From a virus: a stretch of DNA of 21,837 nt. The notes beneath the pieces were generated by a model. That model saw nothing but the letters and a program-made list of their open reading frames with translations. It did no database searches and was not told the origin of the DNA. The translations under genes and the position numbers were made by a program. Positions 1,485 to 21,837 of the stretch are shown here, piece by piece. Position 1 is the stretch's first letter; every line of letters starts with the position of its first letter. Where the stretch lies: positions 1-21,837 of IMG/VR virus record IMGVR_UViG_3300010318_000064; one strand, 5' to 3'.

Positions 1485-1990
1485 ACATTAAGAAATCTCT
1501 TATATCTGTCAGGCATTTTATCGTAGTATTTTGTTTTTGTCAATGACTTTTTTCCTTTATCTAAATCATCAATTCTGGAAACCACTATCAGGAAGTATGG
1601 AGACAGTGACCTCGGGTTGTATTCTCCCATACTTACTTGGTCATTAGGATTGATACATATGTTTTTGTAATCACTTATACCATTATCTTTCATAACTCCA
1701 TTCAAAAACTTGGAGAATTTACCTGTTTCGCTCTTGCTCATTACAACGGGGGTGTCTCCCTGAAACAACGCCAAAGCAGCGGACGAATAACCCTGAGAGA
1801 TAATCTGTTTCATGCAATCAGGAAACGACATCTCATCAGGGTCAAACACTCCAATAAACAATCTACCTCTAGTTCTTTCTGGTTTCGAGAAAGGACAAAC
1901 TGCAAACCCCGAAAACTCTTGTGATGGCACCTCTATGACTTCGGTAAGATACTTTATAATATCTTTAGTCACCTGTGTTTTTTCTGCCAT
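1475..1990 (-). CDS. Unknown protein with CPFSKP motif, 171 aa
   Basis: A 171-residue protein. Near the N-terminus it has F-S-G-F-A-V-C-P-F-S-K-P-E-R-T-R-G-R, which reminds me of the LCPFAKP-type start of DUF1415 proteins; that is a weak resemblance only. I place the start at ATG 1990 (MAEKTQ). The longer frame to a TTG at 2053 has no SD, while ATG 1990 lies inside the end of the small upstream frame, as is usual here. No clear SD is seen for ATG 1990 either. The TAG stop sits inside the tRNA-Met gene, so mature tRNA and intact mRNA for this protein cannot come from the same transcript. Confidence 0.7.
   Translation of the reverse strand: MAEKTQVTKDIIKYLTEVIEVPSQEFSGFAVCPFSKPERTRGRLFIGVFDPDEMSFPDCMKQIISQGYSSAALALFQGDTPVVMSKSETGKFSKFLNGVMKDNGISDYKNICINPNDQVSMGEYNPRSLSPYFLIVVSRIDDLDKGKKSLTKTKYYDKMPDRYKRFLNVDL
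1515..1543 (-). promoter_or_regulatory. Candidate sigma70 promoter for tRNA-Met
   Basis: TTGACA (1543-1538), 17 bases, TAAAAT (1520-1515) on the minus strand. A start near 1508 would put the tRNA 5' end about 24 bases downstream. The promoter lies inside the C-terminal coding part of the 171-aa gene. The other tRNA gene in the window has the same TTGACA/TAAAAT pair. Confidence 0.6.
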
Positions 1991-2117
1991 ACAGTTTGTC
2001 CAATCTCTTTTTTCTCTCCTGTTCGGGACAGGGTTTACTTCTTGATATAACAAAACGAACTACTGCTGATAGGGTATAGGCATAACACAGTATCAGCAGT
2101 AGAGACTCAATCCTCAC
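1965..2117 (-). CDS. Small single-pass membrane protein, 50 aa
   Basis: A 50-residue frame starting with GTG 2117, which overlaps the RNA ligase stop as GTGA; an in-frame ATG at 2147 inside the ligase gene is an alternative. One hydrophobic segment (about residues 5-20, LLLILCYAYTLSAVV) is followed by a long, strongly charged tail (EQERKKRLDK). That fits a single-pass membrane protein with a cytoplasmic tail. It overlaps the next gene by 26 bases. A 12-bp perfect inverted repeat lies under the membrane segment, so the region may instead be a structured untranslated spacer. Function unknown. Confidence 0.45.
   Translation of the reverse strand: MRIESLLLILCYAYTLSAVVRFVISRSKPCPEQERKKRLDKLYGRKNTGD
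2060..2102. repeat. 12-bp perfect inverted repeat, 19-nt spacer
   Basis: CTACTGCTGATA (2060-2071) and its exact reverse complement TATCAGCAGTAG (2091-2102). On the minus-strand transcript this forms a 12-bp stem starting 11 bases after the RNA ligase stop codon. The downstream tail is only moderately T-rich (TTCGTTTTGTT), so it is a weak terminator at best; it could also be an mRNA-processing or stabilising hairpin. Confidence 0.7.
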
Positions 2118-3256
2118 GCTGCCACGAACCTGTAGAAGTTCCTGCAAACAGTCCTAAAGTAGTTGACGCCGCCTTCATTCTCGTTGTGTAATTCGTACAG
2201 CAACTTGTAATCTCCTGCGACTTGAGCACTGTCAACTGTTTCATTTACAACATCAACCATCTTGTATGCCACATCTCGAATCTCTTCGGGCAACATAAAC
2301 ATCATCTTATCAAGACGACCCTTAATCATACAGTTCATGATGTACTTGTAACTCAACTTACTCTTGACCATTTCGCCAATGTAGTTGATATATTTGAACT
2401 TAACGAGTTGTCCGTTAAAGTTCATGACCCAACCCTCGTGATTTGACACTGAACGACTGCTAACTTCATCAACAATTTCATTCAGAGTCATCTCACGAGA
2501 CTCAGGACAAATAAAGAGGTGCGGCATTGACTCACAAATATACTCCAACTCTGCAACATCAAGGGAGTTGCCATCGGAGTCATAAGCGTTCAACAGGTAT
2601 AGCGTTTCCGCGTTGTCATAATCAACAAAGACCTTGGTGTAGGGATGAATCAACTCTACTACAACGGTCATTAGTTTCTTTCCTACAGTCTTTTCTACCT
2701 GTTGAAAGTCCGAAAGAGAAAGCATATCGTTTGCAATCTCCGCACTAACTGTTCCAAATTTACCTCTTGTGGAGGAACACAGTTCACCGTTATGGACAAA
2801 ATACTCAATCATATGTCCGTCTGCCTTCTCTCTGGCAAGGAAACTGCTTGTTCCAAACTTATCAGTAAGTGCCTCGTAAGTGTTTTCTGGCAACTCACTG
2901 AAGTTAAAGAACTTTTCAAACCCTCGACTAACGAGAACTGGTTCCTCCACACTAAAATCGTAAATCATACCGCGCATATCGCGCAGGGGTTGGGACCAAC
3001 CTCTGTCTACTTCGTGCAGTACATTGTGTGCCTGTCCCGTATAGTTTAAAAGAATAAGTTGTCGCTCCTCATCAATGTCAAACCCTAGCAACTCACCTGG
3101 GTTCTCCATGTCAGTGTGCTCAAGGTGTAGTAGTTCTTTGAACTTCTGAGCGTTCTCTCTCTTAAACGATGCCCACTTTGTTTTCTTATCCTCGATAGTT
3201 TTAATCTCAGATGTGATAAGTTTAGCAATCTTTGGCACATTAGAATGTACTGACAT
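2114..3256 (-). CDS. rnlA: T4 Rnl1-type RNA ligase
   Basis: ATP-dependent RNA ligase that joins 5'-phosphate and 3'-hydroxyl RNA ends through enzyme-AMP and RNA-adenylate steps. In T4 it repairs tRNA cut by host anticodon nucleases. The 380 residues are close to T4 Rnl1 (374). Nucleotidyltransferase motifs are in order: K144-A-D-G147 (motif I, AMP-accepting lysine), STRG (162-165), E201-L-I-H-P (III), E274-G-W-V-M (IV) and V-K286-F-K288 (V). The family hallmark RGFEKFFNFSE sits at 111-121. I start at ATG 3256, seven bases after AAAGGA; an ATG two codons earlier is too close to that SD. It has its own consensus promoter and lies close to tRNA-Met. No polynucleotide kinase partner is in the window. 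Confidence 0.95.
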   Translation of the reverse strand: MSVHSNVPKIAKLITSEIKTIEDKKTKWASFKRENAQKFKELLHLEHTDMENPGELLGFDIDEERQLILLNYTGQAHNVLHEVDRGWSQPLRDMRGMIYDFSVEEPVLVSRGFEKFFNFSELPENTYEALTDKFGTSSFLAREKADGHMIEYFVHNGELCSSTRGKFGTVSAEIANDMLSLSDFQQVEKTVGKKLMTVVVELIHPYTKVFVDYDNAETLYLLNAYDSDGNSLDVAELEYICESMPHLFICPESREMTLNEIVDEVSSRSVSNHEGWVMNFNGQLVKFKYINYIGEMVKSKLSYKYIMNCMIKGRLDKMMFMLPEEIRDVAYKMVDVVNETVDSAQVAGDYKLLYELHNENEGGVNYFRTVCRNFYRFVAA

Positions 3257-3287
3257 AATCATGTCCTTTCATTTAAGTTGTGAAAGT

Positions 3288-3316
3288 ATTATATAAATGT
3301 TTTATTTATTTGTCAA
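3288..3316 (-). promoter_or_regulatory. Perfect-consensus sigma70 promoter
   Basis: TTGACA (3316-3311), exactly 17 bases, TATAAT (3293-3288): a full match to the bacterial sigma70 consensus, in the 63-bp gap before RNA ligase. Predicted start near 3281. This indicates strong, probably early, transcription by the unmodified host polymerase. Confidence 0.9.
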
Positions 3317-8282: not shown

Positions 8283-8551
8283 TTCGCATCCCTTAAATTT
8301 GTGGGCGAGAGGTTGTTGTCCCTTTTTGCCCTAATCATTATTCTGAGGAACTTTGCTCGAACCCACTCGGACTCGCCTGTTGTGAGTCTAACTAAGCATC
8401 TGTATTCGTCCCTATGCCACTGATAGTTCCAATCTTCTGGAAGTTCTGTTATTCTCTTGCTCTTAAAAACAAGTCCAACTTCTCCCGCTGCGCCGATTGG
8501 TCCCACCAATCTTACTAAGTCACCCTTGTCAAATTCTTGCCTAATCGTCAT
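8279..8551 (-). CDS. Small KxGDLV-type beta-barrel protein, 90 aa
   Basis: A member of the small barrel group: F-D-K-G-D-L-V-R-L-V-G at residues 8-18, then a turn (GAAGEVGLVFKSKRI), a strand (YRCLVRLTTGESEWV) and a short basic helix at the end. The pattern of G-D-L-V, G-x-V, alternating hydrophobics and a conserved W suggests an SH3/KOW-like fold. I start at ATG 8551, eight bases after GGGG; an ATG two codons earlier (8557) is equally in frame. Function unknown, with nucleic-acid or protein binding inferred from the fold only. Confidence 0.75.
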   Translation of the reverse strand: MTIRQEFDKGDLVRLVGPIGAAGEVGLVFKSKRITELPEDWNYQWHRDEYRCLVRLTTGESEWVRAKFLRIMIRAKRDNNLSPTNLRDAK

Positions 8552-8975
8552 AGTCATCGCCCCAATAACCCAAAAATGGATTATCGTATTCGTCTGTATC
8601 TATCTTTTGTTTTTCTCTTTCTTTTTGTCTCTGTTCTTTTTGTTTAATGAACTTTCTCCTCATAATCTCAAACCTATCATTTCTTTCGAGCATACCATCG
8701 ACTATAGCGGGCAAATAAACAGAAGAACCACCCACAAAGACCCTTACCTTTTCTCCGTCTTTCATTGTCAAAACAGGGTCTGAGTTTATAACTCGCGGGT
8801 GCATCACAAACTCCTTAGCAGTAAGTTCTCTTCTCACAACCCTTCTTCCACTAGGACCTTCTTCCACTGCATTGAGTATAAAAGTTCCGTTCTTGGTTGC
8901 CTTGACGAACTTTCTCTTGCCATCGAGCAAATAAGAAATTTGCTCTATAGTTCTACTGTCTCTAAAGTTGCTCAT
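8541..8975 (-). CDS. Unknown protein with charged C-terminal tail, 144 aa
   Basis: A 144-residue protein, not recognised. The first ~95 residues look beta-rich (KRKFVKATKNGTFILNAV; D-G-E-K-V-R-V-F-V-G-G-S-S-V-Y-L-P). A strongly charged helix follows (about 103-122, RRKFIKQKEQRQKEREKQK) and then an acidic end (YWGDDYDD). Start ATG 8975 overlaps the lipoprotein stop (ATGA). The charge pattern suggests binding to nucleic acid or another protein, as inference only. Confidence 0.75.
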   Translation of the reverse strand: MSNFRDSRTIEQISYLLDGKRKFVKATKNGTFILNAVEEGPSGRRVVRRELTAKEFVMHPRVINSDPVLTMKDGEKVRVFVGGSSVYLPAIVDGMLERNDRFEIMRRKFIKQKEQRQKEREKQKIDTDEYDNPFLGYWGDDYDD

Positions 8976-9196
8976 CTATTCCAGACCCCATCTCTGCAAA
9001 TGTAGTATTCATCACAGACATAAGTTTCTCTTGTTTCGTTCCAGCAATAGTATTGATTGCACACGTTGACTCTTCTGGTGGTATAATAGCAGTCCGTTTC
9101 TGTGTATTCATACTCAGGATGCTGAGGGTCGCAATCATCATCCAAGACAATCAAACACCCCTGTAACATAAACAATAACAAAACTAAAATTCTCAA
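8972..9196 (-). CDS. Small Cys-rich lipoprotein, 74 aa
   Basis: The N-terminus is a lipoprotein signal peptide: R2, a hydrophobic run (ILVLLLFM), then a lipobox-like L-Q-G-C with Cys14. The mature ~60-residue domain has six more cysteines among many Tyr, Asp and Glu, with pairs spaced like knots (DDDC; TDC; NVCNQYYC; YVCDEYYIC). That predicts three disulfides in an exported protein anchored in the host envelope. Phage lipoproteins of this kind include T5 Llp, which blocks the receptor against superinfection; that role is only an analogy here. The start TTG 9196 has GGAG six bases ahead; an in-frame TTG at 9202 is too close to it. A downstream ATG would destroy the signal. Confidence 0.7.
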   Translation of the reverse strand: MRILVLLLFMLQGCLIVLDDDCDPQHPEYEYTETDCYYTTRRVNVCNQYYCWNETRETYVCDEYYICRDGVWNR

Positions 9197-9210
9197 GACC
9201 AACTCCAGTT

Positions 9211-9465
9211 CTAAGCAGTTATCCGCAACTCGACAATACGCCTACATAAATTAGCATATCTCTTTGGTACATGTCCAGTATTTTTTGCCTCAAGTATGTT
9301 TAGTTCTGGTTCTGCCCACTCCTCAACCTCTGGGACGTAAACCAGACACTTACCTTCAATTGTTGAGTATCTGTAAAACATTGCCTCATAACCGTTTACG
9401 TTTGTATCAAATAGATTATAATCTTCAATAAACAAAACCGCTTCGCCCTGCTTGATGTCTGTCAT
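9211..9465 (-). CDS. Small beta-barrel-like protein, 84 aa
   Basis: An 84-residue protein with I-K-Q-G-E-A-V-L-F-I near its start, then strands (YEAMFYRYSTIEGKCLVYV) and a W-A-E-P-E-L segment, similar in layout to the other small barrels in the window. The start ATG 9465 has AAGGAT six bases ahead and overlaps the TGA of the 37-aa upstream frame (ATGA). Function unknown. Confidence 0.75.
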   Translation of the reverse strand: MTDIKQGEAVLFIEDYNLFDTNVNGYEAMFYRYSTIEGKCLVYVPEVEEWAEPELNILEAKNTGHVPKRYANLCRRIVELRITA

Positions 9466-9575
9466 TTCGTAATCCTTTTTTCTAAAGAGTGAACTTTTAG
9501 TGCTAATACTATTATACATACTACACTAAAAATGTCAAGAAAAGCATTTATTTTTACTATATTCCAAAACCACAT
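9462..9575 (-). CDS. Micro membrane protein, 37 aa
   Basis: A 37-residue frame starting with ATG 9575 seven bases after a full GGAGG. Its stop overlaps the next gene's start (ATGA). One membrane helix (about residues 11-27, AFLDIFSVVCIIVLALK), preceded by Trp-rich MWFWNIV and followed by a basic end (LEKRITK). The SD and junction are strong for so short a frame. A consensus-like promoter lies within it (9511-9538), so the DNA may serve both purposes. Function unknown. Confidence 0.6.
   Translation of the reverse strand: MWFWNIVKINAFLDIFSVVCIIVLALKVHSLEKRITK
9511..9538 (-). promoter_or_regulatory. Sigma70 promoter with perfect hexamers
   Basis: TTGACA (9538-9533), 16 bases, TATAAT (9516-9511). 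Predicted start near 9504, about 40 bases before the 84-aa gene, which leads a run containing the lipoprotein and later genes. It lies inside the 37-aa frame. Confidence 0.65.
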
Positions 9576-10476: not shown

Positions 10477-10914
10477 TTATACGACTTTTACCAGTTCTAT
10501 GTCAAAGTTCAAGTCCTTGCCTGCCATTGGGTGGTTAAAATCGACAGTAACCGTCTCCTCATTAACAGAGTTAATTATTCCACGAACTGGTTGTGTTCCA
10601 ACCTGACCCTCAATGACGACACCAGTTTCGAACTTGAAGTCCTCTGGGAAGTGCTCCTTGTTGACTTCTTGCACACCATCTGGATTATGGGGTCCGTATG
10701 CTTGGTCCGGCGAAAGGGTTACAGTCTTCTTTTGTCCCACCTTCATACCGTCAACTGCACTGTCGAAACCTGGAATCATCTCTCCTGCTCCAACCGTAAA
10801 ACTAATCGGTTCTCCTCTCTCATAGGAACTGTCGAATGTCGTTCCGTCCTTGAACGTTCCCTTGTAGTGAACCTGAACTCCTCTTCCTGACTTTGCGATT
10901 GTCTTCTTTGCCAT
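10477..10914 (-). CDS. slyD: FKBP/SlyD-type peptidyl-prolyl isomerase
   Basis: Cis-trans prolyl isomerase, 145 residues. FKBP core: V-H-Y-K-G-T-F (15-21), T-T-F-D-S-S (25-30), then F-T-V-G-A-G-E-M-I-P-G-F-D (39-51) and G-M-K-V-G. An insert-in-flap chaperone-like domain follows A-Y-G-P (73-76) and returns at V-D-F-N-H-P-M-A-G-K (124-133), the hallmark of SlyD/FkpB proteins. The His-rich metal-binding tail of E. coli SlyD is absent, so it is closer to FkpB or short SlyD forms. It probably folds phage proteins in the cytoplasm (no signal peptide). Start ATG with AAGGAG eight bases ahead. Confidence 0.93.
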   Translation of the reverse strand: MAKKTIAKSGRGVQVHYKGTFKDGTTFDSSYERGEPISFTVGAGEMIPGFDSAVDGMKVGQKKTVTLSPDQAYGPHNPDGVQEVNKEHFPEDFKFETGVVIEGQVGTQPVRGIINSVNEETVTVDFNHPMAGKDLNFDIELVKVV

Positions 10915-16033: not shown

Positions 16034-16948
16034 TTACCACCAACTTTCTTGCCAGACACAGTGCTTTACATCTTCCCATGGTCCAAAATCACGACACTCT
16101 TTAAGTGTGTAAATCTTCAACAACTCTCCGCCAAAGGTTGACACACCTGGTTCCAGCGCCTTCTCATACTGGAAGTGCCACCACTCTGCTCCAAGATAAC
16201 TGCCGCCGGTCTTGAATGAACGTCTGCACTTTATGCCCTCGAACCCGTGCTTCTTCGCCAAGTCTGTGAAAGAAAAGAACCTGTCCTCAACGACTACTCT
16301 TGTGTTGTTGTAGGTGTAGGCAGTTATCTTGCGAACCGGAACACTCTCGTCTGTTGTTCTACACCAAACGTTCCAGTTTCTATCTCCAACCTCTTCTACA
16401 ACAAACCTTTCCTTTTTTGGGTTGTTCATTCCAGAGTCCAACGCCATGTCGAACGCTAAACCTGTGTAGTGAAGAGATTTAGAAGAACGACTTGCCATCT
16501 TCTTGCTGTCAGACAGAGGTCTCTTTGCTCCAGCGGAGGTTATAACTCCACCAAGCGAAATGACTTCGTGCCTAAGTTTATTGTATGCAACCGAAACATC
16601 TTCCCTAAGACGAAAGTATGAATAACCTTGACTTCCGTCCACTTGGTCTGCCTCAACCTTTACCCACTTTAACTTAACACTCGACTCCTCTGGGTCAGGG
16701 TAGTCTCCCAACTCGAACTTTAGTTCCGAGTGTCCTGCTGCATCCAGTGCTTCGTTGATTTCTCTTAATGTTCCCTTTCCAACAATACCGTCTGGGTGCA
16801 ACTCGACTGACTCCTGAAACTTCTCTACCTGTATTTCAGTTCCATGTCCAAAGATACCGTCTACAGTTCCCACATTATAACCCAGTGCTTTCAATGCTCT
16901 TTGGAGTTCTTTTACATCCTCTCCCCTAGAACCGTTCTTTATAATCAT
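16034..16948 (-). CDS. Endolysin: peptidoglycan-binding domain plus M15 D,D-peptidase
   Basis: A 304-residue cell-wall enzyme. Residues 1-66 are a PG_binding_1 domain (GSRGEDVKELQRALKALGY; D-G-I-F-G; F-Q; D-G-I-V-G-K-G-T). The C-terminal part is an M15 zinc peptidase: S-L-H160-Y-T-G-L-A-F-D167 and E255-W-W-H258, giving zinc ligands H160, D167 and H258 and catalytic E255. It cuts D-Ala-D-Ala or peptide cross-links. No signal peptide, so a cytoplasmic endolysin needing a holin, or a virion enzyme. Start ATG 16948 overlaps the previous TGA (ATGA); an ATG five codons earlier is less likely. Confidence 0.92.
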   Translation of the reverse strand: MIIKNGSRGEDVKELQRALKALGYNVGTVDGIFGHGTEIQVEKFQESVELHPDGIVGKGTLREINEALDAAGHSELKFELGDYPDPEESSVKLKWVKVEADQVDGSQGYSYFRLREDVSVAYNKLRHEVISLGGVITSAGAKRPLSDSKKMASRSSKSLHYTGLAFDMALDSGMNNPKKERFVVEEVGDRNWNVWCRTTDESVPVRKITAYTYNNTRVVVEDRFFSFTDLAKKHGFEGIKCRRSFKTGGSYLGAEWWHFQYEKALEPGVSTFGGELLKIYTLKECRDFGPWEDVKHCVWQESWW

Positions 16949-17322
16949 TTCTCTGGTCTCCATAGATACTTAATCCAATTATATCTCTTTCTGTTATCCA
17001 AGTAGAAGTGCTCCTTATCGTGCTCATATGCCTCTCTTTCGAAACATATATTGTGGTATGCCTTTTTGCCATCTCCCTTGTACTTTGCGAATAGCACTAA
17101 ATAGTGCAACCCGTACAATATCCATTGGAATACGAAAAGGCATTCGAGTTGCTGCTGAAAATGGATAGTTTCGTGCCTCTTTGTCTTTTCTGACATCTTT
17201 CCCCTACACCAAACCCAGATAGCAAACGAGTTTGCCCACACATTAATGGGCGCAACCTTTGATAACCACACTGGTACTCTACTATTTTCATAAAATATAG
17301 GTTTTAAATTTCTTAAGTTCAT
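16945..17322 (-). CDS. Putative HExxH zinc-binding membrane-associated protein
   Basis: A 125-residue protein with R-H50-E51-T-I-H54, a HExxH zinc-peptidase motif, and E97 in F-E-R-E-A-Y-E as a possible third ligand 43 residues later (gluzincin-like). A hydrophobic segment follows the motif (about 62-79, LFVFQWILYGLHYLVLF), and another lies at 28-38. It may be a small membrane metalloprotease or just a zinc-binding protein. It directly precedes and overlaps the endolysin gene, so a part in lysis or envelope attack is possible. Start ATG 17322 with AGAGGAT ahead. Confidence 0.65.
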   Translation of the reverse strand: MNLRNLKPIFYENSRVPVWLSKVAPINVWANSFAIWVWCRGKMSEKTKRHETIHFQQQLECLFVFQWILYGLHYLVLFAKYKGDGKKAYHNICFEREAYEHDKEHFYLDNRKRYNWIKYLWRPEK

Positions 17323-17324
17323 AT

Positions 17325-17564
17325 TCAATCCTCTCTTTGGTAAACCCACAACCACTTGCTATATACCCATCCAACATCAGAGTTGTTTTTCCCAGTTCTC
17401 TGAAAGTAGTCGTACTGCATCGTGCCAGGTACCATCTTTACATATGCCATTTCTAAACCATCTTCCTCTAAAATGCGCATCTTAAGGAGCAAAGCACACC
17501 ATTCCTCTCTTCTGTAGAGTGAATGATGCACTAAGTCACCAACTTTTATCTTTCTATACTTCAC
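17325..17564 (-). CDS. Small KxGDLV-type beta-barrel protein, 79 aa
   Basis: Family pattern: I-K-V-G-D-L-V-H-H-S (6-15), a strand (WCALLLKMRILEE), another (EMAYVKMVPG) and a closing W-V-Y-S-K-W-L-W-V-Y. The start is uncertain: GTG 17564 has no SD, and no ATG precedes the motif. It follows a candidate 44-aa membrane gene by seven bases. Function unknown. Confidence 0.7.
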   Translation of the reverse strand: MKYRKIKVGDLVHHSLYRREEWCALLLKMRILEEDGLEMAYVKMVPGTMQYDYFQRTGKNNSDVGWVYSKWLWVYQRED

Positions 17565-18171: not shown

Positions 18172-18597
18172 TTACTGTATTTCTATCGACAGGGATTTGA
18201 CCTCCGGTCTTTGTGGAACTCTAACTGAAAGTAAACCATTCTCAAACGACGCTTTCGCACCGGCAAGGTCAAGGTTGTCGTCATAATTCACATAGGTTCT
18301 CGTAAAGTTCCTACGAGCAATCCTTTGTCTCTTTTCATTATCCTCATCAACTTGACCAGTGATGGTAATGCTTCGCTTATCAGGTTGTATGTCAATAGAG
18401 AGTTCTTTCTTCTTGAACCCTGCTAAAGCAAACTCCAACACAGTGGAACCATCATCGTCTCGATAAATGTCGGCAACGGGATAACCCTGTGTGGATGCCC
18501 TGAGATGGGTAGGAAAGTCATTGAAGAAGTTGTCAAAAACCTCATTAATAACTTTGTGACCTAAAAGTCCAGGTCGATATGTAGTAATTGCATTCAT
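18172..18597 (-). CDS. hsp20: Small heat-shock protein Hsp20 (IbpA-like)
   Basis: ATP-independent chaperone that holds unfolded proteins. 141 residues with an N-terminal arm (V-I-N-E-V-F-D-N-F-F-N-D-F), an alpha-crystallin domain (about 40-130) carrying the signature E-N-G-L-L-S-V-R-V-P (119-128), and a C-terminal I-E-I (138-140), the I-x-I motif used in oligomer assembly. Length is typical of bacterial IbpA/HspH. Start ATG 18597 with AAGGAGG eight bases ahead. Its own promoter and terminator make it a single-gene unit, which suggests separate, strong expression. Confidence 0.95.
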   Translation of the reverse strand: MNAITTYRPGLLGHKVINEVFDNFFNDFPTHLRASTQGYPVADIYRDDDGSTVLEFALAGFKKKELSIDIQPDKRSITITGQVDEDNEKRQRIARRNFTRTYVNYDDNLDLAGAKASFENGLLSVRVPQRPEVKSLSIEIQ

Positions 18598-18667
18598 TGT
18601 TATTTCCTCCTTATTAAGCAAGTTACTCCGATGCCCAAGTCCCTTCCGGCAACTTGGTCATACCTAT

Positions 18668-20843: not shown

Positions 20844-21837
20844 CTAGTTCGGAGTCTTCCCTGATTCTTCGATAATTGCAAAATTAGTTGTCAGCAATGT
20901 ACCAGCAGCAGAGACAGCATTTCTTAGTGCATTCTTCGTAACCTTCGCTGGGTCGATGATGCCCTCACGGTACATATCTGCTGGAATACCTAAAAGAAAA
21001 TTGAACCCTGTATCGTCGCTTTCATTAGATAATTTAGAGTCTATGTCCTCAAAATCATACCCAGCATTCTCTGCCATCGTCTTCATTGGAGAACGAAGAA
21101 CATCATAGAAAATCTCTGCTGCAAACTTCTGGTCTTCCGTAAGTTCAATATTTCTAATATCGTCTAAGATTGTTTGCGAGATACGATAGAGAGTCAATCC
21201 ACCACCTGGAACGATACCCTCTTGTTGTGCTGACCTGACTGCTTCTAGGGCATCCTCAATGCGGTGCTTCTTTTCAATCATTTCAATCTCTGTTGCTGCA
21301 CCTACTCGCACAATCGCAACACCACTAGACAACCTTGTCACTCGTTCTTGAACCTGTTCTGCATCCACCAGAGACTCTGCATCCTTGACCTGCTGCTTCA
21401 GGTCTTCGATTCGCTGCGACAACTCGTCCGTATCTCCACCACCCCCAACAATGATTGTGCCATACTTAGAAATCTCAATGTTGTGACAAGTGCCAAGGTC
21501 GTTAATAGTAACATCCTTAACTTGGTCGCCCATCATGGTTCTAAAATATTTTGCACCCGTTGCGATAGCAAGGTCCTGCATTGTTGCTCTTCGTTCTTCT
21601 CCATACTTGGGAGACTTAACAGCAGCAACCTTCATGGAACCTCGTGCAGAGTTCATAACGAGTGCAGAGAGTGCTTGACCCTCCACATCATCACAAACAA
21701 GAACAACTGGTTTCTGTTCTCTTGCTGCAATCTCCAAGACAGGCAGGATAGTTTGCACTTGGTCGACTTGTGCATCACACAAGAAAATCAAAGCATTGTC
21801 GTATCTACAAACATTTCTTCTCTCGTCTGTAACGAAA
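20844..21837 (-). CDS. groL: GroEL-type chaperonin, C-terminal part
   Basis: Group I chaperonin; the window holds the last 330 codons and the N-terminus lies beyond the right edge. The apical domain shows Q-T-I-L-P-V-L-E and D-D-V-E-G-Q-A-L-S-A-L-V, matching the substrate and GroES-binding helices of E. coli GroEL. The return to the equatorial domain has G-A-A-T-E-I-E-M-I-E-K-K, E-G-I-V-P-G-G-G (nucleotide loop) and G-I-I-D-P-A-K-V-T with the Asp equivalent to catalytic D398. The Gly-Gly-Met tail is absent; the protein ends E-E-S-G-K-T-P-N. Phage GroEL relatives are known in some large phages. No GroES gene is in the window. Confidence 0.95.
   Translation of the reverse strand, partial: FVTDERRNVCRYDNALIFLCDAQVDQVQTILPVLEIAAREQKPVVLVCDDVEGQALSALVMNSARGSMKVAAVKSPKYGEERRATMQDLAIATGAKYFRTMMGDQVKDVTINDLGTCHNIEISKYGTIIVGGGGDTDELSQRIEDLKQQVKDAESLVDAEQVQERVTRLSSGVAIVRVGAATEIEMIEKKHRIEDALEAVRSAQQEGIVPGGGLTLYRISQTILDDIRNIELTEDQKFAAEIFYDVLRSPMKTMAENAGYDFEDIDSKLSNESDDTGFNFLLGIPADMYREGIIDPAKVTKNALRNAVSAAGTLLTTNFAIIEESGKTPN

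Follow-up and report, generated by a model that had tools for sequence, protein, structure and literature searches.

A conserved Cys-rich lipoprotein gene of large uncultured phages and its possible role in superinfection exclusion

Results

A small lipoprotein gene within a compact phage operon

The window analyzed here, by which we mean the whole stretch of DNA, is a 21,837-base IMG/VR virus record, a fragment whose genes lie on the minus strand. A first-pass annotation, made from the sequence, had described within it a TTG-started frame at 8972-9196 with a signal sequence ending in LQGC, followed by a 60-residue domain with six Cys, and each of these elements was located exactly as claimed (Table 1). 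The precursor translated from TTG 9196 reads MRILVLLLFMLQGC and then LIVLDDDCDPQHPEYEYTETDCYYTTRRVNVCNQYYCWNETRETYVCDEYYICRDGVWNR; its gene, ending in TGA (8972-8974), has a 4-nt overlap with the following gene, which starts at ATG.

Table 1. Features of the lipoprotein locus in the window.
Feature	Position	Strand	Description	Evidence
Downstream gene	8541..8975	-	ATGA stop/start overlap with the lipoprotein gene	Directly after the lipoprotein gene wherever relatives were checked
Cys-rich lipoprotein gene	8972..9196	-	74 aa, TTG start, TGA stop	Homologues, purifying selection
Mature domain	8975..9157	-	Lipidated Cys (predicted) and 60 residues	AlphaFold, alignment
Lipobox LQGC	9155..9166	-	Cys14 predicted lipidated	Gly-Cys invariant in all homologues
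GGAG ribosome-binding site	9203..9206	-	6 nt spacing to TTG 9196	Sequence
Upstream soluble ORF (MTDIKQGEAVLF...)	9211..9465	-	84 aa	Conserved in relatives
Small ORF (MWFWNIVKINAFLDIFSVVCIIVLALKVHSLEKRITK)	9462..9575	-	37 aa with a single TM helix; overlooked in the first-pass annotation	
Perfect sigma70-type promoter TTGACA-N16-TATAAT	9511..9538	-	Within the 37-aa ORF; the lipoprotein start lies about 315 nt further downstream	

Two in-frame TTG codons, at 9202 and 9196, were candidates for the start of the lipoprotein gene. TTG 9202 was rejected, as it directly abuts the ribosome-binding site and is too near to use the GGAG. The predicted start is 9196, which is preceded at the proper distance by the GGAG and aligns with the ATG (MK or MR) of the closest homologues (L002, L004, L005, L006, L014 and L019), while the versions L003, L007 and L018 have their ATG a few codons upstream of the equivalent position. 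A true start downstream of the lipobox, which would have undone the lipoprotein reading, is unlikely, because a start at the sole internal Met (residue 10) would do away with the signal peptide.

Being short and started by a TTG, the frame might be thought a spurious ORF, yet the chance of this is practically negligible: the gene has 11 distinct versions with invariant Cys, is under purifying selection and is coupled to its neighbor, and codon-level conservation already refutes the idea. When the residues of the protein were shuffled, a comparable lipoprotein signal was regained in 0.01% of cases, and shuffled whole-window ORF sets contained 0.24 lipoprotein-type signals each, versus one in the real window.

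Regarding the neighbors, the 37-aa single-TM ORF at 9462-9575 (MWFWNIVKINAFLDIFSVVCII...) is conserved in L002-L005 and in L007. In L003, L007, L014, L018, L019 and L057, an extra gene for a small TM protein (e.g., MLLAAPLIVGTLFYGGLIVTEIGLKSVRTLIWGKK) directly precedes the lipoprotein gene and separates it from the QGEAVLF-type gene; the window, L002, L004 and L005 lack it. In a related 146.6-kb contig (G007), the third gene downstream of the lipoprotein gene (16562-17110, minus strand) encodes a protein of 182 aa; it has a signal sequence, ends in GVNW much as a small outer-membrane barrel would, and had no Pfam match.

The lipoprotein is strongly conserved in a single phage clade

Ten further distinct versions of the lipoprotein, all ATG-started, were found at the same locus on IMG/VR contigs (L002, L003, L004, L005, L006, L007, L014, L018, L019 and L057, with three identical copies as well of L014 and one of L057). 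Every version carries a lipobox and six Cys, and neither the lipobox Gly-Cys nor any of the six Cys varied in a ten-sequence alignment or over the 11 distinct versions, which upholds the earlier proposal of a phage-encoded lipoprotein at the level of sequence. For most pairs of versions pS was 0.76-0.91 (synonymous sites being saturated) versus a pN of 0.15-0.28, the most distant pair having a pN of 0.42; purifying selection on the gene is strong. It also occupies a fixed slot, preceding a recognizable downstream neighbor in 12 of 13 contigs. In the distant 145-kb contig behind L059 the lipoprotein is missing from this slot, and a profile search of that contig gave no match anywhere.

Searches for named relatives gave little. 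A tblastn search of 50,697 phage records and of plasmids returned nothing meaningful, Pfam and NCBIfam nothing significant, and a sequence search of the PDB no match. Because the collections were probed by degenerate patterns, more distant relatives could have escaped these searches. One pattern scan of 84,980 genomes, which as a single scan does not prove the lipoprotein absent from cells, found no cellular homologue; its lone match (L020) was spurious, an 11-residue coincidence inside an unrelated protein. A 54-aa family of unknown function, phrog_8759, matched weakly (E 9e-4) and over residues 4-25 only, a stretch that takes in the signal and the first part of the mature domain but not the Cys hairpin described below. 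A literature search found precedents for Llp, Cor and spanins, and none for Cys-rich phage lipoproteins. As judged from sequence, the lipoprotein appears to constitute a distinct, strongly conserved family with no named relative, though of an already known general kind.

These data also bear on whether the gene is cargo (a moron) that benefits the host cell, such as a surface protein taken from a host. The MopE-repeat and Cys-rich lipoproteins of related phages, described below, do seem cellular in style, but with neither the genome scan nor the plasmids yielding a homologue, and with the gene fixed at one locus across the phage clade, we consider such an origin distinctly unlikely.

Predicted lipidation and fold

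The signal consists of a short, basic N-terminus and a hydrophobic stretch, ending in LQGC. Over the 11 distinct versions the lipobox takes the forms LQGC, LSGC, VSGC, CTGC and MTGC, and while the Q at -2 in the window departs from the strict consensus [LVI][ASTVI][GAS]C, L003, L006, L007 and L019 have the consensus Ser. The protein thus has the sequence characteristics of a signal peptidase II substrate, and it is predicted to be acylated and anchored to a membrane. The residue at +2 is Leu and not the Asp of inner-membrane lipoproteins, and for this reason the predicted destination is the outer membrane.

AlphaFold, run with the family alignment, predicted a beta-hairpin with strands at residues 29-46 and 51-67 and a pLDDT of about 96 over residues 41-60, the low global pTM (0.41-0.42) reflecting uncertain ends; the mature sequence alone with two paralogues added gave the same hairpin. 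The six Cys of the mature domain lie at residues 22, 36, 46, 51, 61 and 67 (full-length numbering). By residue register, C46 and C51, as well as C36 and C61, face each other across the predicted hairpin, leaving C22 and C67 as the remaining pair, and so we infer a three-disulfide pairing from this register rather than from coordinates. Foldseek searches of the PDB, BFVD and VIA-align with the predicted fold gave no significant match. The window protein further contains an internal tandem repeat, C-x9-C-x4-C occurring twice with the middle Cys common to both (p 0.0004 for the window protein), on which we do not rely because it is weak or absent in L003 and L018.

Host-type promoters surround the gene

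The sigma70-type promoter that had been noted upstream of the lipoprotein gene is indeed present, although it had been overlooked that it sits inside a 37-codon ORF. Perfect TTGACA-N(15-19)-TATAAT sites occur twice in the window (0.02 expected), each time on the coding strand; when one mismatch is allowed the number rises to eight, again with none on the opposite strand, versus about 0.7 in block shuffles. The second perfect site (3288-3316, minus strand) lies upstream of the gene at 2114-3262. In L002 and L005 the perfect hexamers occur at the same codons with the spacer bases changed, and in more distant relatives the site at 9511-9538 is absent.

A similar arrangement was observed in larger records. 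All five perfect sites of G007 fall at 11.4-27.4 kb, with the lipoprotein copy at 18.1 kb, and all six of a second record (G001) fall at 46-74 kb, with the copy at 67.6 kb. In both, every perfect site is on the coding strand and within the accessory (non-structural) block, and the structural block of G007 has none. Elsewhere, scanning 160 kb of each, we found no perfect site in T4 and one in Flavobacterium phage immuto. T4-type late promoters (TATAAATA) showed no enrichment on the coding strand. The clustering of sigma70 sites around the gene is sequence evidence only; it fits reading by the host RNA polymerase, and hence indirectly supports a possible early or middle expression of the lipoprotein.

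Related phages encode a set of Cys-rich lipoproteins

The large terminase of the lineage is T4-like, its best named relatives being those of Flavobacterium phage immuto and a Microcystis phage (42-43% identical). In G007, a crude filter picked out six ORFs with lipobox-like signals, of which five are Cys-rich (7-10% Cys); applied to immuto and T4, it gave two and three such ORFs, respectively, at 0-3.6% Cys. These counts come from this simple filter and from greedy ORF calling rather than a trained predictor. One of the proteins, Lp1 (G007 1643-1933, minus strand, with L027 and L036; G001 83669-83947; L038 5001-5279), is a Cys-rich paralogue of the focal lipoprotein, with which it has a DC-x6-YSHT-x3-C module in common. 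Their likeness spans most of the mature length, with z 7.0 against the G007 copy and only z 2.0 against the window protein. A profile built without Lp1 detected it at E 3.7e-4; the E of about 1e-19 obtained with another profile is due to that profile already including Lp1.

Two more small Cys-rich lipoproteins of G007 (31047-31304 and 93128-93406, minus strand) are related to each other (z 4.8), the latter adjoining the large terminase gene and having relatives in G009 and G011. G007 further encodes a giant lipoprotein (39113-41179, minus strand; L040) of about 690 aa and 47 Cys, with MopE-type metal-binding repeats (PF11617, E 4e-11). This protein was found in seven of ten records (G007, G001, G002, G003, G004, G005 and G010), and in most records viewed its gene comes shortly after an SLT transglycosylase gene; in G007 an ORF with a TM helix and a coiled coil lies between the two, where an i-spanin would be expected.

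Comparison with known phage lipoproteins

To our knowledge, a function (receptor inactivation or lysis) has been assigned to just a few phage lipoproteins. The first-pass annotation had named Llp of phage T5 as the precedent for a superinfection-exclusion factor. Llp is an early-expressed disulfide lipoprotein of about 60 mature residues that binds FhuA from the periplasm (PMC9586334), and it shares with the window protein (PDB 8a60, 7qjf for Llp) a lipobox signal and the mature size of about 60 residues. However, Llp has one disulfide while the window protein has six Cys, and llp adjoins the receptor-binding gene oad while the window gene has no such neighbor. As for homology, none is seen beyond the signal: a profile alignment of Llp with the window family covers just 17 signal residues, and the alignment of the mature domains scores at shuffle level. 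In the Foldseek comparison with the PDB all matches were non-significant, and Llp was not among the 50 listed. The Cor lipoproteins (phrog_1119; phages T1, phi80 and N15) are likewise small phage lipoproteins with a disulfide, and their match to the window protein was at chance level (E 0.31, one of seven members).

The o-spanins (Rz1, T4 PseT.2) are small phage outer-membrane lipoproteins as well, and the window has a putative endolysin with a PG_binding_1 domain (16034-16963) and short TM ORFs near the lipoprotein gene, which would suit the o-spanin of a two-component spanin that fuses both membranes at lysis. This role nevertheless seems very unlikely. The protein has no proline-rich stretch, and no i-spanin-like gene adjoins or overlaps its own, the flanking genes (9211-9465 and 8541-8975) having no TM helix by inspection; its six mature Cys exceed the 0-4 periplasmic Cys of 526 surveyed o-spanins (PMC6139136); its promoter is of host type; and in G007 it is another lipoprotein, over 20 kb distant, that has the SLT transglycosylase and the TM/coiled-coil ORF beside it.

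A possible function in superinfection exclusion

The explanation that we tentatively put first, although we would not call it probable, is that the lipoprotein is made early and excludes further phages by altering a host outer-membrane protein. An early-type operon of a large phage, read by the host polymerase, would produce the precursor, which signal peptidase II would cut before Cys14, and the acylated Cys would bring the lipoprotein to the outer membrane. There, the 60-residue domain would form a long beta-hairpin in which the disulfides C46-C51 and C36-C61 join the two strands and C22-C67 makes up the third pair. From the periplasm it would bind an outer-membrane protein of the host and change it, in the way Llp acts on FhuA, so that the infected cell would cease adsorbing further phages. 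The target and the exclusion itself, along with the membrane sorting, the early timing and the disulfide pairing, are steps that we infer. Against exclusion, the gene sits among small genes of unknown function with no receptor-binding gene beside it, and strong conservation could have causes other than receptor blocking; superinfection exclusion, drawn by analogy with Llp, is a plausible function, one reasonable choice among several.

The same anatomy and timing would also suit a lipoprotein that conditions the envelope early in infection with no receptor block, either by binding or inhibiting some host factor of the periplasm or outer membrane (a protease, an assembly machine or a stress sensor) or by stabilizing the envelope, and this we regard as a realistic possibility short of a probable one. 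The five Cys-rich lipoproteins of G007, one paralogue included, together with the folding helpers (FKBP and GroEL) encoded by these phages, look like a general remodeling of the envelope and of protein quality rather than the block of a single receptor. Yet no target or domain match points to a specific host factor. A bolder proposal, which we find doubtful, is that the lineage rebuilds the outer membrane of the infected cell with a whole set of Cys-rich lipoproteins, of which this would be one: a lipid-anchored, triple-disulfide beta-hairpin that docks from the periplasm on a barrel or receptor plug of the outer membrane, representing a novel type of envelope effector in phages.

Should the lipoprotein block adsorption, Llp-type exclusion would extend to uncultured large phages by way of an unrelated protein; should it not, the lipoprotein would point to an unexplored envelope-remodeling function. 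The family offers a simple predicted fold in a lineage with several Cys-rich lipoproteins.

Other genes of the window and its relatives

Adjoining the putative endolysin is a gene (16945-17355, minus strand) for a protein with an HExxH motif (HETIHFQQQ), which had no Pfam match. The chaperone set of the window, all on the minus strand, comprises part of a GroEL (Cpn60, 20844-21791) and an FKBP-type isomerase (10477-10914), and the product of 18172-18621 (minus strand) reads, by eye, like a small heat-shock protein. In L018, a DnaK-like ORF lies near the lipoprotein locus.
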